From positions 39,421,264 to 39,485,263 of the forward strand of contig OY987242.1 of assembly GCA_963920765.1 (NCBI GenBank): a DNA stretch of 64,000 nucleotides, given 5' to 3'. This document shows, one piece after another, positions 8,395 to 59,437 of this stretch. The notes below the pieces were generated by a model that searched no databases, had not been told where the DNA came from, and saw only the letters and a list, made by a program, of their open reading frames with translations. This DNA comes from Ulota crispa. Taxonomy: Eukaryota > Streptophyta > Bryopsida > Orthotrichales > Orthotrichaceae. The first letter of the stretch is position 1; every line of letters starts with the position of its first letter. The position numbers and the translations under genes were made by a program.

Positions 8395-8559
8395 AGTTAT
8401 TTAGATAGCTAACATTTGCAATTTCTATGCAAATGTTACAACATTATGCTTTGATGTATCACTTATGGAAGTAGATCTTTTCAAGGCCACGTAGGTACTT
8501 GGTTATATCTAAGGTTATTTTGATAACCTAGCTTTTTTCTTTCTACTTGAGTTTTTGAT

Positions 8560-9984
8560 TAGAGCTTCTTCCAAATTGTTTCAACAGAGGCGAGGTTTAT
8601 CAAAATTTCAAGTTTATGAACAAATATGCAAGTGCGTGCAACAAGGAAAAAAAAAGTGGTTTGACCTTTGCCAAGAAGCTGGCTTTTCACCAGCCACAAT
8701 GTTGGAAATCAATTACTCAAAATCAAAAATTGAAGAAGCTATGAATGAGCCTCTTGGACATGGACTCAACAAGTTTGGGCTTGTTCTGGTTCAGTATGGT
8801 CATCATGTTAGGCATTTACCTCTTCTATGTGTTCTTTTGTCATTGCTTGAAACTACTTTGATTCTAGAAGTAATCAAATTTGTCACATGATTTGGGGTGG
8901 CGTAGTGATCTATACTTTCAACATAGTGTGGAGAAACGCTTTTGAAACCCAATCATTCTTGTTCTAGTGCTTAATCACTGGGATTGTTGTTTTTTGCTGG
9001 TGTAGGTCACTGATGTTCATGGCTTGTTATATAATACAATGATGGCTTGTGGGATTACACCACATGAAATGTTTTGTTCCCCTATTAGGTTGCCACCAAA
9101 TCAGGTTCATAAGAAGCCACTAGCTTCAAAGAAAGCTCTCCTAAATTTGAAGCCAAATATTGAATCCAAGAGAGTGGCATCTACTGATGTTCCTTCTTCT
9201 GGAAATGGGCTTCCCAATGTAAAGCTTACGTCTACTGATAAAAGTCCTAATCTAGAAGAAACACACACAAAGAAGACGCCAAAGAGGCTGACTCAAAAGC
9301 ACATGCTGCAATGGATGACCAACAAAAACCGCGTAAAAAATACCGCATTTATTATGAAAAAGCTACATTGCCATGTTTCTTTGTTACTTTCATGTAATTC
9401 CAAAGTTTTTTTTAGTCATTTTAGTCCGTAACGGGAAAATATGGTCAAGCTAATGTCTTGATCTTCATCACGATTTGATTTACACCAATTGATTCTAATC
9501 TATCACGCAAAAGTCATGACTTTTTCAACCTGAAGGACCTATTGCTAGTGCTCTCTTGGTTTGCATCATGTATGTTGAAGTAGATTTTGTGGTTGTCAAC
9601 CTGTATTGTAAGTGTGTTATAGTGTCCCAATTATAGGGCTGTTCAAAAATCTAGGTTTGTTATTTGTATCCTGGTGACCCAAACATCTAGTTATTTTTCC
9701 AAATACAAGAATAGCTATCTCTTGTATTTTTAATATACATCTTCTGCCATTTGGTCAAACAATTGGTGTACGTAATCCACTTAGACTTGTAAAGTGTTTG
9801 ATTTTTGATGCAAGGATTCTTGTTGTTTCTCTAGGTAACATTAATGGAGCTTGTTTAGGAGTTTCAAGGTTATAACAAGTGTCAGCTTATGCAATTTATC
9901 TTATTGCTGGAGAGGAAAAAGCTTATTCAACTGAGTAAGGACATTTTCACAGTGACTTCACTGGGTGAAGAGCAAACTATATAA
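8560..9984 (+). pseudogene. Three-exon gene remnant, arm A copy, family unassigned
   Basis: Three coding blocks can be read. Block 1 (about 8560-8790) has the string FQVYEQICKCVQQG and then FDLCQEAGFSPATML. Block 2 (about 9007-9336) follows a TGTAG acceptor, begins VTDVHGLLYNTMMACG, has a Lys/Ser-rich linker and ends TPKRLTQKHMLQWM. Block 3 (about 9838-9984) contains FQGYNKCQLMQFILLLE and a TAA stop, with one in-frame TAG (position 9859). The last block and the end of block 2 together look like a small winged-helix domain, as found at the ends of DNA-repair or replication proteins, but I cannot name the family. The same three blocks occur in arm B, where block 1 is broken and block 3 is open. 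That agreement in two copies is the main evidence of former coding function. Confidence 0.5.
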
Positions 9985-11204
9985 GATGTAAGCCTTGATG
10001 TAGTTGAATTAGACGGTATGTTGATACACAGTCACGACTAAATATACATTCTCATCTGTACTCCTTGATCTAAGAGACGCGCGACAGCCATGTTGAATGA
10101 GTCTTGCAAAACACCTCATATTTCTTTATTACCGGTAGAGCCAAGATAGGGTATGATTCTCACTCATTTTGCAATCTCAATATAGTTGCTTTCTATTGTG
10201 CCTCATATGCTTCACTACGCCTAGATGCAACAAATTAATCAAATTGACCTGAAAACCATGATGTACAGCCACCCATCTATAGAGCTCTTGTTGAGACTGC
10301 AAAGTAATACTTTTGACAAAATCACTAACATTGTATAAACAGATAGATACAATATGATGCTGGCAAAGAAACTTCAAGAGAAATACTTCAACTAGGGCCT
10401 GAATAGTGCAGTGCCTAAATTTATTTCAGCTCAATGCCTCACCAAAGGCGGGCAACCAGCAAAGAAGAAGGTTTGGTTCTAATGCTTTCTAATCTTGCAA
10501 ACACATGGTAGACTTTGATGATTGCTAACAGCAAGTTATATGAAAAAGAGTGCTATGTGACCCCAATAAAATTGGCCATATAATTACCAAAATAGAAACT
10601 TTCACTTCATCCATACAAGCCTTCTTCCTCCCATATGTCTACCAAAAAGTCCACCATTTCCTGTGACAAGCAAAAACATTGCTCAACCAATTTCCCATGC
10701 TAGTCACTAGCAAGAGTCAAGACTAGAATTTTGTCTAAGGAAGAAAACTAAAAAAGAACTTTGATGCCCATGCTTTTAACTACATATAAGTATGTCTTCT
10801 TTTCTTTGATAAGAGGAAAGGCTCAATAACAGGAATTTTAAACATTTGCAAGATTCTCAAATTTTAACACCTCTCCATGATAGTTTAGAATAATTAGAAG
10901 AAGAAATCTCCAACGCTAAAGTTGGTTACCCAAGATTTCAAGCATATTTTTGAAAATCTAGGTTTTTATATCTTCCAGCAATTTTTTTGATCTTGACAAC
11001 CCTTATTGTCTACAAGTGTAGAACATTCTAGAACATTCTAGAGATTTCTTTCCTTGGGCTTTCTACTATATCCCAAACAAAGAATAGAATGTTTTCCTTG
11101 AAGTACTTAGGGAGGAATTATATTTGTTGTTACACCTTGCAAATGTGAAACTTCACAACACAAGTTTCACAACACAAAAATTGTCACATTTTTATGACTA
11201 TAAC

Positions 11205-11575
11205 TAAACATTTAAGCCCTAAATGCCCGGCTAGTTACTTTGATTATCCCTTTACAATACCTCTATAGGGCTTTACAATGATGTGGCAAGTGCCCACCCA
11301 TTATGATACTATTTCTAATAGTTGCAGAAGTCAAGAATGCATGGTGTCCTCATGAAAATTGCAAGAAGGGCAGCATAGGATTTAACACCATGTTTATGAA
11401 TCTCACAATTTGGGTTACCTAAACAAAATATGAGTACATTTGATGGGATTGTTTATTACTTTTCATGATGGACCATGTGTTTAGAATCACTTCTGAAAAA
11501 ACTAGATGAAAACAACTTTTTTTCAACTTACAAAAGAATTTTTTTTGTTATACACCTCTAGGCGTTTAAGAGTTA
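11205..11575. mobile_element. MITE family B, copy 1, absent from arm B
   Basis: The left end has TTTAAGCCCTAAATGCCCGGC and the right end (complement) CTCTTAAACGCCTAGAGG, an imperfect inverted repeat. Interior similarity to 23972-24353 is clear (for example CACAATTTGGGTT near the middle and ATGATGGA further on). The corresponding point of the inverted duplicate, about 47110, lacks the element: sequence matching 11200 is followed almost at once by sequence matching 11580. No coding capacity is seen. Confidence 0.65.
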
Positions 11576-12149
11576 TCAAGTGACGCTTGTGAAGAGTGGT
11601 TACATAACACCCTAACAAATAGTCTGCCATACATGTTACAATGCAATCATGTCCTTTTTTTTAGAGAAGCCTTATTAATAAGACTTCACAAACAAGACCC
11701 TATTTTGGACCATGGTACAACTAATTAATAATGTTATGACATGTCACAAGCAAAAAAAAAGAGGCTTGAGAGTGTGTAAAAATGGGGAATCCTTGAGTAG
11801 CATATTCAAGCTGGATACTCAAGGAAAAAACATTGTAGACAAGGGAACCAATTGTAAAAAATTCCTCAGTAGAAACCCTATAAACAATTGGGTGGGAGTA
11901 AAGACACCAATTTTGTAACTTAGGAGTTAGAAAAAAGGTGAGAAAGAGTAAGACATATAGTGAGTGGTACAAGCTTTGTGAAGGGACGACTAATGCCAAG
12001 TAGCTCCTCATAAGTTGCACTCCATTTGGAACTCAACAATCACCACATTCAAACAATTGAGCAAATCCATCCAAACAAAACAACATTGGCATAACAAAAA
12101 GACTGCACTTTAATAAGAAAATTGTAGATTCTTGTCTATATGTATAATA

Positions 12150-12400
12150 AACTTGGTTTGTATTAGTTGTATTTGTTGGTCAAGTGAAATATGTTTTAAA
12201 AATTTGTGATTGGCTGTTGGATTAATTATGTTTGTCTGTCAAGCAAAGTATGATTTTAAAATTCATGATTGGTCAAGACTTGGTTTGCATTAGTTTTGCT
12301 TGACCAAGAAAGTATGATTAGCATCTCATTTAAAAATTTGTGAATGGACAAAGGCCAAGAAGCAAAGTGAAAAATTTGTGATTGGTTGAGGGCCAAGGGG
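12150..12400 (+). repeat. Diverged tandem copies of a ~70-95-bp unit
   Basis: The unit runs ACTTGGTTTGCATTAGTT...AAAAATTTGTGATTGG. It appears at about 12150, 12220 and 12277, with a partial copy ending near 12380. Arm B keeps a similar copy at 45715-45800. Confidence 0.55.
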
Positions 12401-12682
12401 CAAAGTGATGAACATGGGTGTTGAGTGTGAAATGGCATCTTTGGTAGAACCCATTGAATCTTTTTCTAACTTGAATTTGAAATTCAAATACAAAAGGGTG
12501 GAGAGGGAGATGAAGAGGCAAACTGATTTGAATCTAAAATTGAATTTGAAAATACTACTTGAGGTAAGCATCCTAAGCTTTGTATAAGATTTCACATGGC
12601 TCACAAACACAAACCAAGGTCACCTCATGGCTTTTTTCCAAAATGTGTCCATAGGACATAAAGGTATACTAGTTTTGGTAAT

Positions 12683-33044: not shown

Positions 33045-33324
33045 TGTTCAAAGGTTGGAATAGGGCATTAGGAGTTTGTTCTAAGCCAAAGGAGATATAC
33101 TAGTTGAGGCACTTAACATTGGAGAGAGAGCATGTGGTAGAAAGCACCTCATATAGAGGATTAGACCATGGGTGTGGTTATCTCATATGGTTAGGTGAAA
33201 AGAGAGTGGTTGAGAGAGTATATAGATGAGAGAGTTTGGGAACACTCACATCTCTTCCATTTGTATTTGAAACATTTAAAAATACCATGTGTGCCTTTAC
33301 TCTTTTATCTTCCCTATGTTTTCA
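33045..33324 (+). repeat. Copia-1 5' LTR (280 bp)
   Basis: It starts TGTTCAAAGGTTGG and ends TATGTTTTCA, so it has TG...CA ends. It aligns end to end with 38424-38700. Counting by eye, roughly one position in five differs, which implies an old insertion. Confidence 0.9.
33219..33225 (+). promoter_or_regulatory. TATA box of the Copia-1 5' LTR
   Basis: TATATAG lies about 100 bp before the LTR end. The 3' LTR has the mutated form TACATAG and Copia-2 keeps TATATAG (59634-59640, minus), which supports its role as the ancestral promoter. Confidence 0.55.
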
Positions 33325-34357
33325 GTAGGTTATGGGCCCACTTCTTAGAGTTTGGAGGTGCATTGTGATGAATGGAGATCACATTTGAGGTAGATCAGCC
33401 TTTAGATTTTGACCTTGTGCACTTAGAGGACTTCTTTAGCTACTTTTGGATGTTATGGGTGGTTTTGTAGTAAAAGTGCTGGTCGTTTGAGCTACTTCAG
33501 CACTAGTCCTAGTTTGTGGAGCTTTTGGAGGACTTGTTGTGCTTGTTTTTTATGTTGGAGGTGCATTGTGGTGAGAAAGGACTTTTGAGGAACTTCATCT
33601 CTCTTTGCATGCCCTTTAGAGTCTTTGGAAATCTTGTTTTGCCTCTTGGAGAGTGGCTGATCCTCATTTAGCTTGGTGGAACACCAAATTCAAATTTGTG
33701 GAGTTGTAGAGCTTGTTGGAGCTTGTTGGAGGATATGATCTATCATATTGGAGGAATTGATCCACTTTGGAACTTATTTAGAGGTCTATTTGGTATTGCA
33801 TAAGCTTTTGGAGGAGTGGAGTTGCTAAGGGTGGAGTTGCACCATCAAAGTGCTTATCTAAAGTACAAAGAGGTGATTTGTGAGTTTGTACTTGCTTTAG
33901 TTGGTTTCTATTCTTGCTTGAGGTTGTTTGCTCAAGTGGATGCATAGTATTTGCTCAAAGGGGGCTGAAATTGCAAGGAGTGAGTTTGAGGGTAAGGTTT
34001 GAGTGATAACCTCACATTTTAAATAGATTTTGTGCTCTTTTGAGGATTGGGTTGTATACTTCAACCCCTTGTATTTGGAAAGATCTATTATTTGCTTGGA
34101 AAATGGTTAAGTTGCATATTTCAACTCTTTGTATGTGTAGTGAACTAGAACTTTACTTGAAAGGTGGTTGGTTTACATACTTTCAACCCTTGTTTTTGGA
34201 GCTAGCTAGCTAGCATTGAGAGTGGTTGAGTAGCATACTTTATCCTTTTATGTGTGGCAAGAGCTAGGGTTTGCTTGTTTGGTGGTTGAACTCTTTATTT
34301 CAATTCCTTGCTATCTTCTTATAACATTGAGAGAGCTTTGAGTTGCATACTCTAGCC
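33325..34357 (+). repeat. Copia-1 leader with ~60-bp tandem repeats
   Basis: The untranslated leader is about 1 kb. Its last part (34046-34310) holds five copies of a ~60-bp unit with GGTTGANTTGCATACTTTCAACCC, at about 34046, 34106, 34168, 34228 and 34283. Each has a short inverted repeat GGTTGA/TCAACC. The end of Copia-2 in the window (63961-63996, minus) has the same unit. Confidence 0.7.
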
Positions 34358-36780: not shown

Positions 36781-38447
36781 TAGAAGAACCACTTCTTTCC
36801 TTACCAACTTTCTTTTTGGATCATATTAGTGTGGCGCTTATTTATGATCCAATTGCACTTGGGGAGGCTTTGGAGTCTCGCGCTGCAAGCAAGTGGGAGG
36901 CAGCCATAGAGGAAGAGTACCACTCTTTTCATGCAAACGGCACGTGGGAATTGACTACCTTTCCATCTTCTCACAAAGCGGTGGAATACAAATGGGTGTT
37001 CAAGACCAAGAGAGATGCTATGGAGGAGATTGTGCGCCACAGGGTAAGGTTGGTGGCAAGAGGATTCTTTCAAATCCAAAGAGTGGACTTCAACGAGATA
37101 TTTGCTCTTGTGGCCAAGTTCACCACCATACGGTGTATTGTGGCCCTTGGAGCATCATTGGACTTAGAGATGCACCAAATGGATGTGAAGACGGCTTTTT
37201 TCAATGGTTACATGGAAGAAGACATCTACATGGAGTAATGTAAGGAATTTGTGCAACGTAGTTACAAGCACCTTGTTTGCAAGCTTACAAAGTCTTTGTA
37301 TGAGCTTATGCAAGTATGAAGGGCATGGTACCAAAAGATTGATACAAGTCTTTTGGGGTCCTGGTTTTGAAAAGAATGTGGCAGACCATAGCTTGTATTT
37401 TGCACAAGTAGGAGCTCATGTTATGCTTGTGCTTGTAGATGTTGATGATTTGGTCATTCTCTCTAGCAAAGTGGAGACCATGGGTGCATTAAAAGCCAAG
37501 TTGGAAGCGAAGTACAAGATGACGGATTTGGAAGAGTTGCACTATTGCCTTGGAGTGGAGTTTTGGAGAGATTGAAGTGCAAAGACTATCACCATGAGTC
37601 AAATCAAGTATGTAGAAGAAGTGCTGAAGCAGTTTGGCATGGGAGATTCCAAACCCATCGGCACTCCGTTAGACACCAAGGTGAAGTTGGTGAAATTTAG
37701 CATGGAGGAGTATGATGCAGATGCCTTGAGGATGATGAGTGTGCCTTACAAATTAGCTATTAGATCCTTGATATATGCCATGGTAGCTACAAGGGCTGAT
37801 TTGGCCTTTACCATTAGCACGGTGAGCCAACCTATGGCAAAGCCAGAATATAGTCATTGGATGGCAGTAAAGAGGATCATGAGATATCTCAAGGGCATCT
37901 CTCATATGAAATTGTAATTGGAAGGGGGGCACATGTGCTTGGTGGGGTACTGTAATGCAGATTGGGCTGGCGACGTCAACAATAGGAAGTCTACTACAGG
38001 TCATGTATTTAGCCTTGGAGAGGGCATGGTGTCATAAAGTAGCAAAAAGCAACCCACGGTGGCTTTATTCACAACGAAGGCAGAATACATGGCCGCGAGC
38101 CTTTGTACAAGAGAGGCAATGTGGCTAAGACAACTCTTAGAGGATGTGGGGTGTGAGGACATGGAAGGCACCTTGATCTTGTGTGACAATGAAAGTGCCA
38201 TAGCTCTTGCCAAATATCTGATGCACCATGCGAGGACAAAGTACATTGAGGCGCAACACCATTTTGTGAGGGAGAAAGTAGAGTAGGGAAGCATCACATT
38301 GGAGTATTGTCCAATAGAAGATTTGTTGGAGGATGTGATAACAAAGGTGTTGGCAAAAGATAGACATGAGTGTTTGGTAAGAGGCATGGGCATTGGAGAC
38401 TTTGGCCATTTGCAAAGTGGGAGTATTAAAAGGTTGGAATATAGCAT
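36781..38447 (+). pseudogene. pol: Copia-1 reverse transcriptase and RNase H
   Basis: RT blocks: KWVFKTKRDAMEEIVRHRVR, RLVARGFFQ, MDVKTAFFNG (36960-37240), then VLVDVDDLVIL where YVDD is usual, so the two catalytic Asp remain but the Tyr is lost. LEELHYCLGVEF, SVPYKLAIRSLIYAMVATR and MRYLKGIS follow. RNase H has NADWAGD, ALFTTKAEYMAAS and CDNESAIALAK, up to 38286. At least four stops and one frameshift near 37250-37330 prevent expression. Confidence 0.92.
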
Positions 38448-38700
38448 TAGGAATTTGCTCTAGGCCAAAGGAGATATGCTAATTGGGCTATTTAACATTG
38501 GAGCAAGAGCATGTGATAAGTACTTCATTGAGAGCATTAGACAATGGGCGTGGTTATCCTATATGATTAAGCAAAGAGATAGTGGTTGCAAGAGTACATA
38601 GATAAGAGGGTTTGACAACACTCACATCTTTTCTATTTGTATTTTGTACATTTGAGTATACCATGAGTGCTTTTGCTCTTCTATCATCTCTTTGTTTTCA
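38424..38700 (+). repeat. Copia-1 3' LTR (277 bp)
   Basis: It begins TATTAAAAGGTTGG (the TG has become TA) directly after the polypurine tract and ends TTTGTTTTCA. It aligns throughout with 33045-33324. Confidence 0.9.
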
Positions 38701-38858
38701 ATATTAAAGACATGGAAAATGGTACTAACATTCATAAATTCAAACAATTGCATAAGATGACAACACCCACTAACACTGCAACTTAAACCAGAGAATCTGA
38801 AATTGGAATAATTTAACTCAAATTTTGTTGAAACTAATGATTTCTTTGTTTATTACAG

Positions 38859-40344
38859 TGATGGCAGAGAATCGAATTTCCAAAGTTGCTAAATAAGTAA
38901 GGGCAAAACAAAAGAAGAAACTCTTATCCCATTTTGACTAGATAAAGCTGACGGAAGAAAATGTCAGCAAATATAGAGATAAATTTGTTGTTGGTGTATG
39001 TTGGGAACCAAAGGCGTCCCACAATATTGAGTATTGGAAACTTACACTAGTGCCTATGAAGACTGAGCTCAATTTCATGTCAAAATTCAAAACCTGCAAA
39101 CTCAGAGCTTCTCGTGTCACTTGAGGAGAAGGTGACATGGCTTAGCAATGGGTCAAGTGATGTTGTCCTCACCTCTAGCATAACTATCTAACCAAGAGGT
39201 ACAATGAATCAACATAACTTCACGTACGCCATCCTCAGCCAAATGACAACATTTTTTCTATCAGCACAGTGGATGAATTTGACAAACAATGACTCCAACG
39301 GTATCCAAGCAGAACTAGACCAACGGATTGAAAGTGGTTACTATCTAGGTAAGGACGGAGCCCAATTACCTCCAAAGACTCTAGTATCAAGGTGCAACGG
39401 ACTTGTAAAGGATTTCCAACACTTGAAAGAAACAATTATGCTAAATAAACAGAGCTTGGAACCTTTATCCCTAACTCGTGATTACAACAATCAAGGTGGA
39501 CAAAGCTGTGGTTTGCTGGTTATTGAGACTCTAGGTTTACTCTAGAGCAGAACAAAGAGGAAGACAATACGGATCAAAGGTAGGGCTGCACCAGCCAAAG
39601 GACTAACATCGGCTAGTAAAGAAAGACAATAATCAGCAAAGAAGCTAATAGAGAAGTCTAATCTTGCAAAGAGTAGCATTGCCTCTAAAGCTGTCAGTGT
39701 TTCCAAGGATGTTGGAATAAACCAAGAGGATATTGACAACAAAAAGTTGTGCCAGATACATAAGAAGTATTTGGCGAAGTGCATGGACTCATATATCCCA
39801 TTGGTCAAAAACAAGTATTCCAACAGTATAGACCAGCTAGAGACTCTACCACCTCATCTATACATTTGCTGCCTCAAGGAAGCTGGAGTTGGAAAGCCCA
39901 GAACTTCCTTATCCACATGCTTGATCCAAACAATGGGATGACTTTCTACGTAATGCCAAAAGCCCTAATGCAGAAATTGACATCATTTGCTAAAGTGAGG
40001 GATGGGGAGTTTTGGATAATTAATGGGCAATACATGGTGGAGGCTTCAAAGAGAATCTAGACCATGAAGCAGATAGAGGACAAAGCCAATATTTTCAGAA
40101 CCTAGGATTGCTTTGTTCTGTGCAATAAGAAACAAAAGATCATTCACAAAATCTCCGCGTTCTACAACTGAACCAACCACTTCCAAATTTTCTTGCCAGT
40201 ATGGGCCACAATTATTATTGGGGCCCAACACCTAGACCAGTCTTGGGACCCACCTCCCCCAAAAGATGTAAACCGTTGGGTAGGCCAGCATTCAACAATA
40301 GGAAGTTGACCGCAAAGGACATGGTTAATATGGCAAAATACAAG
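38859..40344 (+). pseudogene. Degenerate gene, N-terminal part with ParB/sulfiredoxin-like motif
   Basis: A TTTATTACAG acceptor (38849-38858) precedes ATGGCAGAG at 38861. After a first block (KLTEENVSKYRDKFVVGV) the frame shifts. One frame is then coherent from 39204 to about 39905 with only two stops: NDSNGIQAELDQRIESGYYL, SNLAKSSIASKAVSVSK and ECMDSY-like KCMDSYIPLVKNKYSNS. Another shift leads into GEFWIINGQYMVEASKRI (39995-40058), which matches the ParB/Srx signature DGQHR..AA, then KIIHKISAFYN and TNHFQIFLPVWA. ParB-family domains bind nucleotides and DNA or act as nucleases. The block ends at a consensus donor (CAAG|GTAAGA, 40345). At least six breaks show it is dead. The ParB call rests on one motif and its context. 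Confidence 0.5.
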
Positions 40345-40488
40345 GTAAGAATTAATTTAATCCAAGTTAAACTTCTCTTTCATGAATGTAATCTGGTTTT
40401 ATCAAGGATGCACAGTAGGCCTTGATTTAACTTGACTGGAGTTAAATTACACTTCTCACTCACTACAAATCTTTGTATGAATCTATAG
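40345..40488 (+). other. Intron 1 of the ParB/methyltransferase-like locus
   Basis: GTAAGA donor and ATCTATAG acceptor bound 144 bp of T-rich sequence. It carries the palindrome ATTTAACTTGACTGGAGTTAAAT at 40425-40447 and a half copy near 40366. Confidence 0.6.
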
Positions 40489-42480
40489 GAGTTTGAGAAC
40501 GTAGTTTTTCTTCATTTTGCCATGATTGACATCAAGAAGAACTAGAACGCGTTGAAGAAGAAGAAAAATGTTGACATCCACAATGAGATCAAGATCATAA
40601 CTACACCTCAATTGGTTTACAATTTGTGGAAGGAAGTCATCTTTAGCAACTCAAGGGGGGACCTCATCAACCCCAACACTTGTACAAAATTTAATGCCAA
40701 CAAATTTTGGAATGCCAAAAAAGATGGCGTGATTAGCGGCAAGTTCTTCAAGGGGATGGGAATGTCTCAATGGACAACTTCAAGAAGCTTGCCACACATT
40801 TGTTGAACCGCATCCATAAACGCAACCTTTTGTATCCAAAGGTAGTTATGAAGAAGCCTTTGGATTGTATTCTAGACTGCTACACAACCAAGGATTGGCT
40901 TGAACTGTATAAAAAGAAGTTGCCGGTGCGATGGCAACTCCACAACCTCAACAACAACTTTCATTTGTTCAGTCATAAAGGCGTGTTGAGGGTGGAAGAG
41001 TGGAAGGCTTTCAAGAGAAACTACAACATCACTTTGATTACAATGAACACCCTTGTTACAAGCCCAAGGGAGGAATTTTGTGGCAAAGTGAAGAAAACCT
41101 GCAACAAGAACAAGCCGATTCACACTTTGTCTCCCTACACAAAGGAGTTCTTCTAGCTCTTCTTGAATAGCAAGGGCAAATTCTAGAAACTAGAGGCAAC
41201 TACCTTCCTCAAATCATACGGCATGGCAAATGGCAAACTTGGAGAATGGTCAAACAAAGGCAGGGATGAGTTGCAAGAATTCAAATGTAACTTTGCGCTA
41301 ATTGACTTTTGCAATATTCCAAGAATCATCAGCAAGGGGATATCCTCGGCCCCTTATTTCACAATTTTTCTAGAGGAGTTGGGCAGACAAGCCAAACCTT
41401 GACTGATGGATTTTAATGTCTGGTTCTGGATTGCCAATGACCACAAAACCAAATTGCTGCTGAGGTCGTACATGTGTGCCAAATTAGTTGCATAGTGCAA
41501 TCTACCCCCTTGTCAGAACAAGCTCTTTAAAGATCTACTTGAATGGATAGCAAAGTAAAAGGCTCCTTTGTAATTGATGTTCCTCATCAAGAAGGGCTTG
41601 GGGTTTAAAAAAGGTCAAATCCCCAACTAATTCAACCCACTAGTAGCCAACGCCTGACAAGTTTCTCTAGTTGGGACAATACAACGAGCTGCTATATAGG
41701 ATCTACAACATTGAATTGAGAATGGAGTTCTATTTGAAGATGTTAGATATGTTTTGCAAATCAAATGATGGAGTTGTCTCCATTTTTGGTGGAGGGGAGA
41801 TCATCTGCGTTGCTTGGGTGAGTGTCCTTTAACTTGACCCAAGTTAAATCCATGCTGCTCCTTCACGCATCTCCACTAGATTGCCATGTGCTGATTTTTT
41901 TCTTTAGGATCTCCTTGCTGTCTGCGTTAGTTCCATTTAACTCAACCGAGTTAAATCCTTTCAACCCTTCTAACTAGTTTATGCCATCTACTCAAATGAG
42001 TTCCTTGAAGCATTTTGTCATAATGGACAAAGAATACAAGGAGAGGTTCCTTGAGCTCACATTTGGGTCAAGAAATATAGACAAGGACAATTTCCTTGAG
42101 TCCAAATATTTGCTTGACCAAAGCAAATACGCCAAGAAAGAGGAGGCAAAAAGATCATTGTCATTTGTGCGTAAGAACACAAGCATTGACAAGGAAAAAC
42201 AGAAGATCTACAAGGAGGAGGAGCAGAAGGAGGAAAGAAACAAAAGAGATAATCCTATAAACCATGACTCAGATGAGTTGAATTGTTGGAACAACATTCC
42301 CCAAGAGCAACCTACACCAAATCCATCAACACCTCTAGTTTCTAATGCAGATTTTGATTCAAGTGATTCCTCAAGTTCATTGGATGTGTAGGAAACAAGT
42401 CCAATTCCAACTCTTCGGCGTAGCAAGAGGAAACAAGTTGTCTCTTCAATGGTTTCAAAAGAGCAAAAGGTGATTATGAA
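40489..42480 (+). pseudogene. DNA methyltransferase-like part of the same degenerate locus
   Basis: Blocks in order: IITTPQLVYNLWKEVIFSN and FKGMGMSQ (40489-40770); LELYKKKLPVRWQL, FSHKGVLRVEEWKAF and KRNYNITLITMNTLV (40770-41156); then, past stops, NFALIDFCNIPR and FTIFLEELGRQAKP; and YNELLYRIYNIELRMEF, DMFCKSNDGVVSIFGGGE (41740-41805). The last string has the shape of SAM-binding motif I of N4/N6 methyltransferases (D.V.D.F.G.G), and the ALID/ICN region could correspond to a degraded DPPY. An intron follows at 41818. After it DKEYKERFLELTFGSRNID and a Lys/Glu-rich stretch lead to an acidic Ser tail. I rate the methyltransferase assignment as tentative. Six or more stops are present. Confidence 0.4.
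41818..41907 (+). other. Intron 2 of the ParB/methyltransferase-like locus
   Basis: GTGAGT donor and TTCTTTAG acceptor, 90 bp. It holds the palindrome TTTAACTTGACCCAAGTTAAA at 41828-41848. A third palindrome ATTTAACTCAACCGAGTTAAAT (41935-41956) follows 28 bp into the next block, perhaps in a very short further intron. Confidence 0.55.
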
Positions 42481-43574
42481 CTTTGTGTAGGAGGCTATGG
42501 ATAAATACAACTCACAAATCAAGAAGAGAACAAGCGAGCCTGAAAAGACACGCAAAAGTTCATGACAAATATGGCAGAGGCCTTATTGAAGACTATCCCA
42601 GCAATGGTTCAAAGTATTGTTGCCAATATAATGGCAGGCACGCCTCTACAAATTTCTATTCCTCGTGGCAATTCAAGCCCTTTCATAATCAAAAACCGTG
42701 CCCATGGAACTGTCGACAGTGCTTGCAGAGATCTTTTAGAGTTGCTTACTTGGTCGCAATTGCAGAATACCCTGCAGCCAATGCCGTCTCAACCGTCCTC
42801 GACAACTCATCCTATTAAATAGCTTGTAGGTGTTTGCTCAGTTTAATTAGAGACTGCGACCACCACACCTGCAAAAACCAATCCTTTATCAAACAAACTA
42901 GCCAAGGACATTTCTTTAGTGGATGTCGCAATTAGCACAAACAAAGCGCCATAGGCAAAAGAGCAAAAGCATCCAGAGCAGTCACTAGGCCCTGTGACTG
43001 CTACTCCTCTAGGTTGTTCCCAGCGATTCTTTATCTATCAATTCAACTCAAATTGAATTGAATGGTCTTCCATTCAATCTTGCTAGTTAGAGTTTTAGCA
43101 TACTGAAACTTCTTAAGCAGATTCATTGACCGTGTACACATCTATTAATATTTTCCCCTTGGGGGCTATAATAAATGCATATTTTTCACACATATCTTGT
43201 CACTTATAATGTCCATATTGGCAAGGCCACTCAATATCAAACTTGAAACTCCATATCCTCCCATGGATGAAGTTCAGTTCTTCCCCACATCTAATTCCCC
43301 ATAGCGTTGTCTCCAAGAATCTGCTGCCCCATCAAATTCAGTGGATCAAGTAGGAGCTAATCCCTCTAAAGCCATAGATTACAGTTCTGATGAACATGAT
43401 AGTCCCTCTAGAAATGAAGTTTGGATCATTCAAGGTGAGGACTTTGAGTTTGAGATGGATGGTGGTGTTTGTGATGTAGAATTTCTAGAGAGTTCATCAA
43501 CGCTTATGAAGATTGATGATGTCAAAGACTCACCTATTGAAGATGAAGGGCCATTGAATCGCGTAGACTCCTAA
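42481..43574 (+). pseudogene. C-terminal part of the ParB/methyltransferase-like locus
   Basis: A frame at 42562-42822 reads EALLKTIPAMVQSIVANIMAG and FIIKNRAHGTVDSACRDLLE. After several frame changes a clean acidic tail at 43341-43574 has DYSSDEHDSPSRNEVWI and GEDFEFEMDGGVCDVEF and ends with TAA. It is probably the C-terminus of the gene that begins near 38859, but exon junctions are not certain. No catalytic motif is seen. Confidence 0.35.
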
Positions 43575-43794
43575 ATTGTTATGATTTACATGGGGTGATT
43601 TAGCATGTTTGATAGTCATGTCTTGTGCTCTATATCTGTTTGTTGTGTGTAGAGTACTTCTTGGTTAGGGTCAATAAAACTCTTGCAAGCATTCATTTAA
43701 TATTTGTCTGCACATTCTTTTGTATTTGTGAATAAGATTGTAGATGGAATGCAAGCATTACACTAGGTAAACGAGTTCCTTCAGCAATCTGGTC

Positions 43795-44420
43795 CACTGT
43801 GAGACTAAAATGGCTTCATGTGTTCTTTGGTATCAATAGGGTCCTTTGAGTGGTTGAGAATAAGAGATATCTCTACATGGAAAATATATATAGTTACACA
43901 TTCAATGTGCACCCTAATCTGGAGCAACTCAATCTTCCTGTACGCCAAGTAGTTATCCATCCACATTACAAAGAGTTCTTGAAAGAATTACTAAGCATAT
44001 CAATCGTGTGGATATGGGCCACCATGCGTGTGCATACAGCCGTACTTATTTGCAAGTACCTATTCAAGGACCTGCCCTTCCCAAGTCTTGTTCATGGTCA
44101 AAAGCATTGCGACCAGCTACCATGTAGTACATTGAGCAAGAATCATGTTATGTCTAGGGTTCCAAGAAGTAGGAAGAACTTGTTTTTCAAGGATCTTTAT
44201 AAGTGGTACTTTTAGAACAAACTCCTCTTCCTCTCCAAAAAAACACAATGTTTGTGGATGACTCTTTGGCTCAGCATGTACAGAACACTCCAGAGAATGT
44301 GGAGCTGCAGAAGAGGTGGATCCACAAGTTGGATGGCGTACACAATAGGTTCCTTGTGGAAAATCTTTTGCCTTCAATTCTATGCCTTGAATTGACGGGG
44401 AGAGATAGTCTAGTGTCTTT
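43795..44420 (+). pseudogene. FCP1/NIF-type HAD phosphatase remnant
   Basis: Three family landmarks are seen in order. Motif I, normally DLNG(I/V)LC, appears as D-stop-NGFMC near 43804-43825. The middle part reads HPHYKEFLKELLSISIVWIWATMRVHTAV in part (43955-44045), matching the 'RP..KEFLE..' and 'IWS..' strings of FCP1-like domains. Motif III appears as NTMFVDDSLAQHVQNTPENV (44245-44305), matching the VDDSP loop. A YLFKDLPFPSLVHGQKHCDQ block lies between. Such enzymes are Mg-dependent phosphatases of the DxDx(T/V) class. Stops and a frameshift near 44216 make it inactive. Confidence 0.55.
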
Positions 44421-45284
44421 TAGGAGTTCAGACAATTTAGGTTGTAAATTGAGAAAAATTGGCCCTAACACTTTTGACTACAACAATGATCTAAATGCTG
44501 TGAAGGAAATGAATACTATGTTCCTCCAATGCTTTGATCAACATGGAAATTGGGTTACATAAGCTTAAGTTGGCATGTAGTTTCTTGGTTCCCTTTTATC
44601 TCACATTAACTGCCATATTTGTGGACTATGAACAGTTTGCTACTTTGCAACAGGATGTGCGGTGCATCATGTTCTTGGCAGCCATTGCGCAATCATCAAT
44701 GGAGTATTCCACCATGCCTGTGGATGACAATGTTGTTGATAGTCCTCCCAGTGGTGGGAAATGTCCTCTGTCTATGAGCTCTCCTTTGCCACTAAGGTGC
44801 CGTCATTGGTTGTGTTTACTTAAAATTCTAATTGAGAAGAATTCCGTACCTCAAAGGCAGCTCTATGGCAAAGATGAAGATACAATTATTGTTGCTACTT
44901 TGGATCGAAAGATTTTTGTTCTTGGAATTTTCAATTTTGTTTGTTTATGTGCTTGATGAATATTCTAGAATGCAATTAATTGTCTAATGTTGCTTGTTTT
45001 TATAGTGCCCAAATTTTTTGTCAAACTACGGTGCAATCAATCTAAGACAACCCACATTGTCCAAGGATTGTCAACATCCTTTACCACAATCTTGGTTAAG
45101 GGCTGTTGGACAACGTCTTTGCATGACTCATAATAGGCATTTTCCTCTTCCTATTGGCAAGCGTCCTTGGAACGCATGGGAAGAAAAGTCCTTGAAGATG
45201 CAAGTACTAGAACAAAATTGGCACTCACAAGGAAACAATTCTGGATATAGTTGTGGACCCAAAATAATGAAGACTTTAGAATAG
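44421..45284 (+). pseudogene. Two-exon remnant, unknown
   Basis: Readable blocks are LTAIFVDYEQFATLQQDVRC and IMFLAAIAQSSMEYS (44600-44712), SVPQRQLYGKDEDTIIVATL (44845-44905), then, after a possible intron ending TTTTTATAG near 45005, RPWNAWEEKSLKMQVLEQNW (45165-45225) to TAG at 45282-45284. It may be the downstream part of the phosphatase gene. I do not recognise the family. Confidence 0.3.
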
Positions 45285-45714
45285 CTAAAAAATAGGTCAC
45301 ATTCATAGGTTTGAGATTACAACATTGAATACTCTCTCAATTTAAGAATGTATAGTATCCAGTTTGTAGTGATGCTACTAGCTCTATCTTTCAATGGCAT
45401 GTACCTTACTACCAAAATTTGCAATACCGTATGCCTTAGAGCGTTCTAAGGCATTTTCAAATTACATTCAATAGTTTATCTCATAGTCTTTATTATGTTT
45501 GTGTTACTCATAGCTTGTTTCATAGTAATGAGTTTAATTCTATAGGAGAATGCAAAATATTTTAAATTCTTTCAATTTTTAACTACTTCTATGTGAACGC
45601 AATGATTCATTTATGTTCACATACAACTTATTATGATGAATATGTTATGTGTACGGCTTCTAGAATCTCTCATTTCACTACAAAACTCTCATTTTAGTGA
45701 ATATGGTGTTTTTG
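45285..45714. other. AT-rich spacer, no gene seen
   Basis: It lies between the degenerate gene cluster and arm B. Nothing can be supported. Confidence 0.4.
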
Positions 45715-45829
45715 GCCCTTGGCCATTCACAAATTTTTAAATCAAATGCTAACCATACTTTCTTAATCAAGCAAAACTAATGCTAACCAAGTCTATTATA
45801 TTAGTGGACCCATGCACTTGCCATTCCAA

Positions 45830-46120
45830 CAGAGGGCTATGGTATCTCCCATCTTTCCATTTTGTTTCCCCCATTCTTCCATCCCATGCCCACCATCCCA
45901 TGTCCTCGTCTCATGCCCCCATTCTCCCATTGCATAAACCTATCCTATGTATTTCCATCCCATGTGGCATTTCACACTTACAATGACATTTTACAATTTA
46001 GTGCAAATGACTATTCACTTTCCAATAACCTTTCATAATTCCAATGCCTTTTCCTTCACAATTTCCAATAACTTTTTACCTTCCAATGTCTTTTCACCCT
46101 CCATTTGGATTGAAGTAGAG
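45830..46120 (+). repeat. Pyrimidine-rich degenerate repeats within arm B
   Basis: CCCATGCCCACC and CCCATGTCCTCG variants are followed by TTTCCAATAACCTTT and TTTCCAATAACTTTT variants. The block has no counterpart in arm A. Confidence 0.45.
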
Positions 46121-48346
46121 GCTCTTTTTCAGACAATGGATGGGAGGACAACATGACATAACCACCACTACATTCTATTATTATATAGAAGATAAGAACA
46201 CTAGTATACCCTATGCACCCATTGTACCAACAAAGTGATGCCCTCCATTGCCCCTGATTCACATTAAAAAATATCCATGGAATAATAAAAATTCAAATTC
46301 TATTTTAGATTCAAATCAATTTGTCTCTTCATCTCCCTCTCCATCCCTCTTATATCTGAATTTCAAATTCAAGTTGGAAAAAGATTCAATGGATTCCACC
46401 AAAGATATCCTTTCACACCCAGCCCATGTTCATCACTTTGCTCCTTGCCCTTGGCCAATCAAAAAAATTTAAATCATATGTTGTGAACTACTTAACTATT
46501 GCAGACAAATACACACCTCACTCTTTGATAGAAAGAAGACAAGGAAGTCTTGTAATTTTTATTAAAGTGCAATTTTCTCATGTTATGCCAATGTTGTTGT
46601 TTGGATGGATTTGCTCAACTATTTGAATGTGGTGATTGCTAAGTTCTAGATGGAGCGCAACTTACAAAGAGCCACTTGGCACTAGTCACCTCTTTACAGA
46701 GCCTACACCACTCACTATATGTCTTACTCTTTTCTCACTTTTTTTCTAACTCCAAAGTTACAAAATTGGCGTCTTTGCCCCTATCCAATTGCTTTTGGGG
46801 TTTCTACAAGTGAATTTTCTACAGTTGGGTCCTTTGTCTACAATTTTTTCTTCCTTAATTAACTAGCCTAAATATGCTACTCAAGGATTCCCTGTATTTA
46901 CATGTTCTCAAATATTTTTGCTTATGACTTGTCATAACACTAATAATCAATTGTACCAAGATCCAAAATAGGGTCTTGCTTGTGAAGTCTTAATTAGGGA
47001 GGCCTCTAAAAAAATGACATGATTGTATTGTAATATGTGTGGGAGACTTTGTTTGTAAGGTTGCTACGTAACCACTCCTCACAAGCATTAGCTGTTTAGC
47101 GTGTAGTAGTAGTTATAAAAATTTGACACTTTCATGTTGTGAAGTATCACATTTGCAACAATAATTGTAATTCCTCCATAAGTAACTCAAAGAAAACATT
47201 TTGTCCTAAGTTGGAGTATTGTAGAAAGTTTAAAGAAAGAAATCTCTAGAATGTTTTAGAAAGTTCTAGAATGTTTTGCACTTATAGACAATTGAAGGTG
47301 TCAAAATTGAAATGCTTTTTGGAAGATATAAAAGCTCAGATATTTAAAAGTATGCTTGAAATCTTGGGTAACCAACCACATTATTAGAGATTTCTTCTTC
47401 TAATTATTCTAAAATGTCATGGGGAGGGGTTGAAATTCAAAAATCTTGCAAATGTTGGAATCCCTATTATTGAGCCTTTCTCCATGTCAAAAAAAGAGGC
47501 AAATTTATATGTAGTTAAAGCATAGGCATCAAAGTTCTTTTTTAGTTTCCTTCTTTAATGCCCCATGTGTACTAGCCTAAAGTTCTAGGCAATATCTAGT
47601 CTTGAGTCCTGTTAACAATTGGTATAGAAGAATGGTTGAGCAAATTTTTGCTTGTCACAAGAAATGGTGGACTTTTTGGTAGACGTATGGGAGCAAGAAG
47701 GCTTGTATGGATGAAGTGAAAGTTTTTTTTTTTCTAATTGTACACGATGGCCAATTTTGTTGGGGCCACATAGCACTATGTTTCATATAACTTGCTTTTA
47801 GCAATTATCAAAACCTACCATATGTTTGCAAGACTAGAAAGCATTAGAACCAAACCTTCTTCTTTGCTAGTTGCCCTCCTTTGGTGAGGAATTTGAGCTG
47901 AAATAAACTTAGGCATTGCACAGTTTAGGCCCTAGCAAGTTGAGGTATTTCTCTTGAAGTTTCCTTGGCAACATCATGTTGTATCTATCTGTTTATACAA
48001 TGTTGGTGATTTTGTCAAAAGTATTACTTTGCAGTCTCAACAAGAGCTCTATAGATGGGTGGCTGTACATCATGGTTTTCAGGTCAATTTGATTAATTTG
48101 TTGCATCTAGGCGTAGTGAAGCATATGAGGCACAATAGAAAGCAACTATATTGAGATTGCAAAATGAGTGAGAATCATACCCTATCTTGGCTCTACCGGT
48201 AATAAAGAAATATGAGGTGTTTTGCAAGACTCATTCAACATGGTTGTCATGTGTCTTTTAGATCAAGGAGTACAAATGAGAATGTATTTTTAGTTGTGAA
48301 TGTGTATCAACATATTGTCTTACTCAACTACATCAAGGCTTACATC

Positions 48347-50130
48347 TTATATAGTTTGCTCTTCACCTGGTGAAATCACTGTGAAAATGCCCTTACTCAA
48401 TTGAATAAGCTTCTTCCTTTCTAGCAATAGGATAAGCTGCATAAGCTGACATTTGTTATAACCTTGAAACTCTTGAATGAGCTCCAATACTGTTACTTGG
48501 AGAAAACAACAAAAATCCTTGCATCAAAAATTGAACACTGCACAAGTTTGAGTGGATGATGTACACTAACCGTCTAACCAAATGGCAAAAGTTGTATATT
48601 AAAAAAACAAGAGGTAGCTATTCTTATGTTTGAAAAAATAACTAGATGTTTGGGTCACCAGGATACAAATAACAAAACCTAGATTTTTGAATAGCCCTAT
48701 AATTGGGACACTATAACACACTTACAATAGAGGTTGACAACACAAAATCTACTTCAACACACATGATACAAATTGAGAGAGCACTAGCAATAGGTCCTTT
48801 ACATTGAAAAAGTCATGATTTTTGCATGATAGACAAGATTCAACTAGTGTAAATCAAATTGTGATTAAGACCAAGACATCAACTTGACTGTATTTTCCCA
48901 TTATGGATTGAAATGACTAAAAAAACTTTGGAATTAAATGAAAGTAACAAAATAATATAACAATGTCACTCATTCATGATAAATGCAGTTTTCTTATGCC
49001 GTTTCTATTGATCATCCACTGTAGCATGTGTTTTTGAATTAGCCTCTTTGGCGTCTGCTTTATGTCTGCTTCTTTCCAACCAAGACTTTTGTCAGTAGAC
49101 ATAAGCTTTACATAGGGAAGCCCATTTCTAGAAGAAGGAACATGATTAGATGCTCTTCCTTTGGATTCAATACTTGGCTTTGAATTTAGGAAAGCTTACT
49201 TTGAAGCTAGTGGCTTTTGAGGAACTTGACTTGGTGACAACTCCATAGAGGAACAAAACATCTAATGTGGCATAATCCCACAAGCCATCATCTTTGTGTA
49301 TAACAAGACATGAACATCAGTGGCTTGCACCGGCAAAAAGAACCCTCAATGATTAAGCATTGGAACAAGAATGAATGGGTTTCAAAAGCGTTTCTCCATG
49401 CTATGCTAAAATTATATACTACCATGGTTGTCTTCCCCAACATTATAATAACTCAACAAACTTGACGTCACAGACGGACAAGAGACCCTCTGTCCATCTA
49501 GTAAAGTCAACTTTAAGGTTGACTTTTAAATAAAGCATTTTCTATTTCACATCTTGACATATTAATGTTTCATTTTATTAAAGTATCTCAATTTTTTATA
49601 CACTTATTAAAACCTACAATTTGGATCATATTTAAAGTAAATTGAAATGATTACCTCATCTATTAAAAAGGGCCTTATTAGACAAAATTATCACTCATAC
49701 TTGACACTTGTCATGTGCAACATTAGACGTCAGACAGACAACACAACAACCAAACCCCAAAACATGTCCGACAAGACAACTTTGTACACTACTATACCCA
49801 CCCCAAATCATGTGACGGATTTGAGTACATCCAAGATCAAGGTAGCTTTTAGTAATGAAAAAAACAAGCAAAGAAGAGGTAAATGCCTAACATGATGACC
49901 ACACTAAACTAGAACAAGCCCAAACTTGTCAAGTTGATGTCCAAGAGGCTCATTTATAGCTTTTTCAGCTCTTATTTTTGCGTCATTGATTTCCAACATT
50001 ATGGCTAGTGAAAAGCCAACTTCTTGGAAAAAGTCAAACTAGTCTATTATTTTTCCTTATTGCATGCAATTGCATATTTGTTCATGAATTTGAAGTTTTG
50101 ATAAACCTTGCCTCTGCTAAAATAATTCAA
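48347..50130 (-). pseudogene. Three-exon gene remnant, arm B copy
   Basis: The blocks correspond to those at 8560-9984. Block 1 (about 50125-49900) has GLSKLQIHEQIC and MLEINDAKIRAEKAINEPL but at least two stops. Block 2 (about 49325-48990) has VHVLLYTKMMACGIMPH, then a stop, and ends TPKRLIQKHMLQWM. Block 3 (about 48495-48347) reads EFQGYNKCQLMQLILLLE without the in-frame stop of arm A and ends with the same TAA. The damaged positions differ between the arms, so each decayed after the duplication. Confidence 0.5.
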
Positions 50131-50310
50131 GAGAAGCTCTAATTAGAAACTCAAGTAAAAAAGAAAAAACTAGGCTATCAACATAACCTTGGACATAATT
50201 GGGTACCTTTGTGGCCTTGAAAAGATCTACTTCCATAAGTGATACATCAAAGCATAATATTGTAACATTCTCATAGAAACAGCAGACATTAGCTATCTAA
50301 ATAACTTAAG

Positions 50311-57199: not shown

Positions 57200-59437
57200 G
57201 TTCATGACGTACATGTCTCTCTAGTATTGGGTCCAGTCAAGCCCATATACTTCAGTCTAGACATTCTTGCACGCCCCTATTATAATCCAACTCTTGTGCA
57301 AAGGTCCCCACTAAATCATCATCAAATCTTGAGGACATTGGCTCCTTGTTCTCTTCATCTATATCTGTTTCCTCCAAATACTTCTCGTAAAATTAGCTAG
57401 ATTTTTTCCACGTGTCTCCCTATCCAGTTTGTTGTTGGCATAAATATACACCAAAGCCTTTGCCTTTAGTGCAGTCAAGCGGTTTTGCACTTTATTGTGC
57501 ACAAACAAGCACATGCTCCAATTCCTTTTGCATGAGGATGTGGAACATGTCAAAGACAAAATCCTCCTAGCAATTTTTGTGACAGCAATCTCGTTGACAC
57601 AATTCCACCAGTGATGAGGCAATAGTTTACAATGGGTGATACTTGGTGCCTGTTGCAATGGATCAAACGAGCTTGTCTTTTCTTCAAAATCCGTCAACTT
57701 GCTCATAGCATCGTCTTCTGACACTCCCAATGGCCCGCTCAATTTTTGGATTACTCAATTCAAGGTAGGTTTGCCCTGGCCATTGTGATGAATGATAAGT
57801 ATGTCAACCAAATACGGATTGAATAGTGCTGCGGCAAAGCGGAGGTTGTTGTGCATCAATTTCCATTGAACGTCAAATTGCTTCTCAAATTTTGTTGTTT
57901 TTTTATCATCTAGGAAAAAAAGCTCATTTTTGAGAGAGTAAACATAAAGCTTCAGTTGGTGCATAACTATCCAAGCTTGGGGCATTGCTGGAACTTTTCC
58001 ATCAAACATTCAAAGGTCTAATATAGCAAGTTTCATTATGTACAAAAATTAGCACATTCTAGCCAAAACATATTTGAATGGATGTCCTATTGAGCTCTTT
58101 GTGCATGCAATTGGACACTACAACCATTACTCCAATAAAACAAATGACTCTCAAATTCATCATATGGGGGTTTGTAATCACAAATAACAATGCTTGCTTA
58201 CGTTCCACCAGATGGTCTATCATGAGAAAGTTCATTGCAAAATGTATTTGTGAAGGAAATTGCAATGACAATTTTGGTGAATACTTCCAAAAAAGAGCCA
58301 ATGTATGATGGTATTCTTTGATGAACCTCACAATAGCTTGGCACCTCAATACCAGTTTTGAAACTCGCTTCTCCTTTTTCCAATCCTCCATAAACAAGTC
58401 CATACTGTGAATAGCACATCCTTGTCTTAATATGTGTGGGTGTTTATCTACCAATTTTGTGAGGGTCCTTGTCATCACTGCCGCATTGTCAGTACATAGT
58501 TGGACCACGTTTGGAGGGCCAACTTCCTCTAAGTATTTTGGCATCATACTTGTTGTACACGCAATGTCCTTTTTTGCTCTGATGGTGTCAACAGATCCCA
58601 AAAATACATCACCGGCTGGATATACAAGCATTAGGTTTAATAACGAGCATAAGTTGGTATCAAACCCTTTGTCCAAACAAATGGTTGCTCCATACAACTC
58701 AATACTCTACTTCGTTTGCTCCGACACCATTTTTGAAACTGCATCTTTCTTTGTATCTATCATTTTAGTGCGCATAGCATTATATGGTGGTGGTTGATAC
58801 ATCAAACCGGATGCCGTTGTTTCTTTTATTGCCTTCATGAAAGCTAGATGTTGCACATCGTTGAAAGCAATGTTTGCCTTGTAGAAAAAAAAGGCCCCAT
58901 CATATCCAACTTCTACCTGACACCCACCTGTAATGCTTTATCCATGCTCATATGGTAAGAACTAGAAGGAGTAAACCTCCTTTTTGCAACTGATGCTAGA
59001 ATAAAATCCACTGAATCTAGATTAGAAGGGCGTACTTCCTCTATACTTATAAGATTTGCAGATTCTTCCTGTGACAAAGCCACCACATGGTTTGCTGAGG
59101 GCTTGGCCGCTGACTCAGCAATACCATCACTTTCTTCATTCAACCAAAACATGTCCATGTAGAACATTTTTTTTTAAACAACCCCTTGACAATTCTTGAA
59201 TTTCTCCACCACCAACCTTGGAGCACGTTTAGAACAATAAAAAGAAGGGTTGTTGCCATATTCAAAGTGCATGAGAGCCCTTTTCCGTATAAAGACACAA
59301 TTCCAGCTGCAAAAAACACATGTTCTTGAATTCACACTTTTACTATAATCAGTCTCTAAAGTCAACCAAGAGTTCCATTTTTTTGTGGCCCTCCATGTAT
59401 TGTTGGCAGTAGCCCTTCCAACAGGTTGTGCAGCCAT
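57200..59437 (-). pseudogene. hAT-family transposase pseudogene
   Basis: The start is probably ATG 59437 (MAAQPVG). A BED-like zinc finger follows: CVFC, then HFEYGNNPSFYC (59350-59230). The DUF659 part at 58697-58059 is open for 212 codons: VVQLCTDNAAVMTRTL and CAIHSMDLFMEDW match the conserved 'DNA.N..A' and 'CAAH.LNL' strings, with A-I-H for A-A-H. At 58009-57755 DVQWKLMHNNLRFAAALFNP continues the helical part. The dimerisation domain at 57742-57400 has WWNCVNEIAVTKIARRILSL, CKRNWSMCLFVHNKVQNRL and LVYIYANNKL, the diagnostic hAT C-terminus. Stops occur near 59170 and 58050. A transposase of this class would cut and paste an element with short TIRs and 8-bp duplications; I did not locate the TIRs. 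Confidence 0.9.

Follow-up and report, generated by a model that had tools for sequence, protein, structure and literature searches.

A decayed ParB-like and methyltransferase-like gene of Ulota crispa, its linked partner gene and its palindromic sites

What is a gene that recalls both ParB proteins and DNA methyltransferases doing in a moss? We addressed this question in a 64,000-nucleotide stretch of Ulota crispa (GCA_963920765.1, contig OY987242.1, positions 39,421,264 to 39,485,263 of the forward strand; hereafter the window), in which a sequence-based prediction (the original prediction) had placed a degenerate multi-exon gene of this kind next to an element named Copia-1. We consider it likely that the gene is a decayed copy of a multi-copy, probably transposon-borne module of two genes, whose ParB/pseudo-methyltransferase protein would bind the module's own palindromes. 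The module combines two folds recognized by prediction, a conserved gene pair, and palindromes of 21-25 bp repeated in introns and flanks. The product of gene 1 would join a ParB/Srx-fold domain, preceded by an N-terminal domain, to a beta-class DNA methyltransferase fold lacking the catalytic motif, and gene 2, downstream on the same strand, would encode an FCP1/NIF-type HAD phosphatase-like protein.

Two predicted folds and a linked gene

At the level of fold, comparison supports a ParB/Srx alpha+beta domain in the family's protein and, with a moderate model, a permuted beta-class DNA methyltransferase domain in exon 2, in which motif IV precedes motif I; both comparisons rest on VIA-align, and the MTA1 and METTL3 complex structures were among the methyltransferase-fold matches. 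Of the 31 rows of the ParB alignment (A4), 18 have GQH in the motif column, three each have RQH, EQH and GQY, and four other forms appear once each; the residue after GQH is mostly Ser or Thr in the family, and less decayed copies retain GQH, as in FYIINGQHSIAVSK (copy L062) and FWMINGQHTVEALK (copy L061). Since GQH dominates this column, the GQY of the window copy looks like its decayed form. The two motifs that had been proposed, WIINGQYMVEASKRI (40013-40057, ParB-like) and SNDGVVSIFGGGE (41761-41799, motif I for S-adenosylmethionine, SAM), do lie at those places on the + strand. Our own patterns for them, written after the motifs were known, matched once each in the six window frames, whereas 50 shuffles averaged 0.12 and 0.0 matches; taken by themselves, the motifs carry little weight, and it is the retention of the GQH column in A4 that makes them more than chance.

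The profile searches weigh against this reading. ParB_N (PF02195), whose absence the original prediction had named as refuting its proposal, matched none of 28 members and had no match in the whole genome, with a control that was positive in 10 of 14 genomes. PF01555 reached E 0.033 and 14.6 bits, against a cut-off of 26.7, in copy L077 only, with no match in L076 or the L061 open reading frame (ORF). ORF pieces and read-through frames of the window gave no ParB or methylase match in Pfam, PHROGs or NCBIfam (the latter two run on the six read-through frames), and PDB sequence searches with alignments A1 and A2 found no relative. Among the 28 A1 members, AIPR was matched by two (best 4.6e-5; 0.038 for one in a rescan of ten members) and DUF6551 by four (best 0.046), neither of which was used as proof; Rad33 was also matched by two, at 4.2e-5.

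The idea of a ParB domain and a methylase in one gene thus stands in part: both folds are predicted in consecutive exons that are free of stops in L076 and L077, but it finds no backing in Pfam or in a catalytic motif. The residues of motifs I and IV define methyltransferase activity, and the catalytic motif is [DNS]PP[YFW]. The proposed SAM motif I is partly kept in position but is degenerate: it reads VVSVFAGSK or VLSVYAGSK in less decayed copies and VYAGSK in L076 and L077, and in intact copies the acidic residue is replaced by Ser and the last Gly by Lys. A catalytic DPPY or [DNS]PP[YFW] motif was found in none of the 27 covering rows of alignment A6, which have no Pro-Pro at motif IV. Because the SAM motif is degenerate and DPPY is absent throughout, "methylase" here denotes a fold, not an activity.

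The assembly comprises 274.8 Mb in 157 contigs, eleven of which (ten large and one small) hold 98.6%. That the family is multi-copy was borne out, with lower bounds of at least 49 places for the exon-2 ORF, at least 28 for the exon-1 ORF and at least 59 when the ParB-like ORF is taken from the divergent copy L062. Exon-2 paralogues range from 85% down to 31% identity, and 35 of the 49 matched stretches contain a stop. The places are spread over ten contigs, and of the 45 loci into which they merge (one of the 49 places being left out), 16 fall on contig C11, which makes up 2.3% of the genome (6.3 Mb; binomial p 2e-15) and may be a sex or accessory chromosome.

Outside the moss, the genomes of 84,980 prokaryote species were scanned with the ParB alignment by way of one peptide pattern. 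There were 23 matches to the pattern, and the relatives recovered were two, L076 (CADCWO010000269.1) and L077 (CADCWO010000243.1), both in one metagenome bin labelled Synechococcales (AVDCRST_MAG81); their ParB domains show 35-36% identity over residues 10-167. Both have stop-free ORFs split by GT-AG introns and a long charged C-terminal exon. Because they bear introns, we regard them as eukaryotic, and the contigs are probably mis-binned eukaryotic DNA contaminating AVDCRST_MAG81. The ratio of nonsynonymous to synonymous substitution between the two is low (0.145 in the ParB exon, 0.12 in exon 2), which argues that both domains are kept by selection; the same ratio for L061 and L006 is saturated. 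As for the ancient transfer suggested by the original prediction, which is hypothetical, pattern-based scans of viral contigs found no relative, and tblastn with the L061 domain in phages returned only five records at E 0.3 or worse, four of them Staphylococcus phages matched over 20 residues at E 4, two of these being annotated as ParB-like.

The downstream gene, represented by that of copy L063, resembles the FCP1/NIF HAD phosphatases in its match to PF03031 (3.3e-8; 33.8 bits against a cut-off of 21.8) and has 76 places in the genome. When exon-2 and L062 ParB places were merged into 58 loci (leaving out four of 49, four of 59 and fifteen of 76 places, nearly all second pieces of listed copies), 46 were followed within 12 kb by a NIF-like place on the same strand and 12 lacked one; in no case did such a place lie only upstream or on the opposite strand, the chance expectation being about 0.13% per locus. 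The pair is kept in a divergent subfamily as well (for example, C7:442498 and C7:436540). The protein differs from these phosphatases in its catalytic DxD, which reads DLN (DLNG in place of the expected DLDxT) in four of four copies with a readable motif; for this reason, it is perhaps inactive. The window's own NIF relic pieces gave no Pfam match of the NIF kind.

A second, distinct ParB-like family (FYYIIGGQHRVKAH, HYYIISGQHIIEAHK; L061:4215-4571 and L067:603-1799, both on the - strand) occupies 36 places, one copy lying downstream of the L061 copy. Near the start of contig C10, L072:64-597 (+) contains MIIDGQHSFQAAK and represents another divergent relative; two long ORFs follow it.

Palindromic sites around the genes

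Three TTTAACT...AGTTAAA palindromes (gap up to 12) occur in the window, all within introns of the gene. An idealised 21-base site, searched with up to four mismatches, was found four times, always between 38812 and 43062, compared with two in the reversed window and two in all in 20 shuffles. Across nine stretches (part of the window, six other genomic copies and the two metagenome copies; 78,253 bases, 28,094 of them in aligned exon blocks, which leave out the low-complexity C-terminal part), 73 sites were found, with none in exon blocks and none in reversed controls; other sites are found ahead of the coding part and in the stretch that separates the two genes. L076 and L077 carry near-perfect 25-bp forms at upstream and intron positions, and in introns of L061 three and four palindromes stand at spacings of about 75 and 105 bp. 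The divergent copies L065 and L070 showed no repeated palindrome in the short pieces examined.

Genome-wide, 189 places of this first type were counted and 12 of the control, and among the matches listed (contigs C1 to C6), 43 of 50 are no more than 25 kb away from a family place, in a zone covering 0.80% of the genome. Arrays also occur far upstream, with five places at C1:32352795-32353354 (and a weaker sixth in L078) and four at C4:5362486-5363437. A second type, TTCAGCTN7AGCTGAA (80 places against 1), is mostly dispersed, with some pairs 72 bp apart, and 6 of 50 among the matches listed are near family places (zone, 1.0% of the genome). A third palindrome, TGTACNTGATCANGTACA (134 places against 0 for the control), occurs three times in an intron of L071; it was dropped as family-linked because 0 of 50 among the matches listed were near family genes and none was found in L065, L070 or L073. 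An 18-bp GATC palindrome, TGTACATGATCATGTACA, is dispersed over C1 and other contigs (134 places, none for the control).

A candidate mechanism and its alternatives

We propose that the ParB/pseudo-methyltransferase protein may bind these palindromes as ParB binds parS, that its methyltransferase fold would read DNA instead of methylating it, and that binding, possibly together with the FCP1-like partner, would mark, regulate or assemble the protein's own element. As in bacterial ParB-parS, a (predicted) ParB/Srx fold occurs beside repeated palindromic sites. The bacterial pocket motif is G-x-[HR], followed by Arg where the moss family mostly has Ser or Thr; the family differs in reading GQH[ST], in lacking a ParB_N match and in having its sites in introns. 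METTL14 and MTA9 are non-catalytic partners of METTL3 and MTA1, and the moss domain is like them in having a methyltransferase fold that has lost its catalytic motif, although any such pairing here is hypothetical. If the sites are bound, a bacterial-style partition protein would have been turned into a plant transposon factor, with a dead methyltransferase as DNA reader. That the whole amounts to a eukaryotic ParB-parS-like system, with arrays in introns, in flanks and 12-18 kb upstream (possibly at an element end), and with the FCP1-like protein helping to mark, silence, assemble or segregate the element, is a tentative extension that we hold to be possible rather than probable.

The Ectocarpus Sola1 transposon is reported to encode a large protein in which a ParB-like domain is combined with one of the N4C/N6A methyltransferase type, and its authors propose that proteins of this sort may attach to the DNA of their own transposon and mark it (PMC12477816). 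Set beside it by description only, the moss module has lost motif IV, carries palindromic arrays in introns and has a NIF-type gene downstream. In bacterial ParB-adenine-methylase fusions and phage "polyvalent proteins", the same two kinds of domain share one protein (PMC5512222); the moss genes differ in their eukaryotic introns and in the poor phage matches described above. Within the accessible, mostly open-access literature, we found no target site or phosphatase partner for ParB-methyltransferase transposon proteins. In the present family, a specific candidate site can be named, the partner gene is conserved and some copies are free of stops.

Other explanations deserve weight. The palindromes might be the ends or hairpins of small mobile elements, similar to introners or miniature inverted-repeat transposable elements, that made the introns, leaving the ParB-like protein uninvolved; their intronic position, their spacing in L061 and the dispersed second type with its 72-bp pairs would fit, but the window's own type concentrates near family genes, is also present before the coding part and in the space between both genes, and keeps the same core in L076 and L077 despite ParB domains that are only 35-36% identical, so that we regard this as somewhat unlikely. 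The methyltransferase part could instead be an active N6-adenine or N4-cytosine enzyme with an unusual motif IV, as its beta-class fold and partly kept motif I position (VYAGSK in L076 and L077) would allow; the absence of Pro-Pro at motif IV from all 27 covering rows and the Ser and Lys substitutions in motif I of intact copies make this appear quite improbable.

An ordinary host gene family that spread by segmental duplication and decayed, without being a transposon component, is an unlikely origin. The nearly 10 kb that the window shares with L059 and L060 at 88-90% identity fits block duplication, and no transposase was found; against this stand the places on ten contigs, the 16 of 45 merged loci on 2.3% of the genome, the stops in 35 of 49 matched stretches and the ParB-methyltransferase genes reported within algal transposons (PMC12477816). 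Mobility of the two-gene module is, indeed, our inference: no transposase, element ends or target-site duplications were seen at the copies, Sola transposases not having been searched for. KDZ (PF18758) matched one place, on contig C152, which has no listed family place, and was rejected as the module's transposase, not being near the copies. Finally, it is scarcely credible that the motifs arose by chance in an unrelated retroelement gag; such a gene would explain why the window's own frames have no Pfam match above cut-off, but not the family alignments, the two fold matches and the conserved neighbour gene.

The copy in the window

The description of the gene as multi-exon and degenerate held: tblastn with paralogue ORFs (L061 and the N-terminal piece of L063) aligned it in seven pieces that use all three + frames and together contain 16 in-frame stops, and GT-AG introns can be read (Table 1). 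The copy is dead. In 30 loci, aligned stops number 125 TAG, 58 TGA and 32 TAA, TAG mostly opposite Gln (39) or Trp (30) and TGA opposite Arg (16), a pattern that would fit loss of methylated cytosines (CAG to TAG, CGA to TGA).

Table 1. Features of the gene relic and its neighbours (window coordinates)
Feature	Position	Strand	Evidence
5' long terminal repeat (LTR) of Copia-1, outside the gene	33047-33327	+	blastn self-match to 38426-38703, about 80%
3' LTR of Copia-1, neighbour	38426-38703	+	blastn self-match
Degenerate palindromic site upstream of gene	38812-38832	.	pattern scan, up to 4 mismatches
N-terminal domain of protein, relic	38837-39341	+	aligned by tblastn to the N-terminal piece of L063 in two frames; 3 stops
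Relic of linker and ParB/Srx-like domain, with GQY (decayed GQH) at 40013-40057	39522-40228	+	tblastn with L061 ORF, 59% identity over 39893-40228; fold comparison; alignment A4
Intron 1 (GTAAG...TATAG)	40345-40488	+	read from sequence; GT-AG intron at matching place in L076/L077
Palindromic site, intron 1	40426-40446	.	pattern scans
Exon 2, beta-class methyltransferase-like domain, relic	40489-41817	+	L061 ORF aligned by tblastn in two frames over 40711-41829, with 8 stops; fold comparison; alignment A6
Motif IV position (ALIDFCN)	41295-41315	+	exon 2, alignment A6
Motif I position	within 41761-41799	+	exon 2, alignment A6
Intron 2, donor 41818, end approximate	41818-41979	+	read from sequence; two palindromes inside
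Palindromic site, intron 2	41828-41848	.	pattern scans
Palindromic site, intron 2, one base shorter	41936-41955	.	pattern scan
C-terminal charged and low-complexity part, relic, exon limits approximate	41978-43574	+	ORFs; long charged C-terminal exon in L076/L077
Degenerate palindromic site outside aligned exon blocks	43042-43062	.	pattern scans
Relic of downstream FCP1/NIF-type HAD phosphatase-like gene	43793-44523	+	two pieces aligned by tblastn to L063:2152-2913, at 37% and 48%

Copia-1 does adjoin the gene, as had been noted, the first aligned piece starting 134 bases past its end. Window 37065-46728, L059 and L060 share the 3' part of Copia-1 beside the gene and the sequence downstream; because the Copia-1 part is shared, we conclude that a compound unit multiplied after the Copia insertion. 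An Ulp1/C48 protease identity for 39192-39542 and 44203-45281 was rejected: Pfam held no such match, no relevant structure came up when the PDB was searched with the first piece, and that piece lies within the N-terminal part of the ParB protein while the start of the second is the NIF relic. An Rfam scan of the window gave no match.

Elsewhere in the window, another repeat occurs as two copies in inverted orientation, 8394-12550 and 46292-50307, which are 82-87% identical piece by piece and have matching pieces in L064 and at the downstream ends of L059 and L060, and an ORF at 58062-58706 (-) resembles what we take to be a hAT-type transposase.

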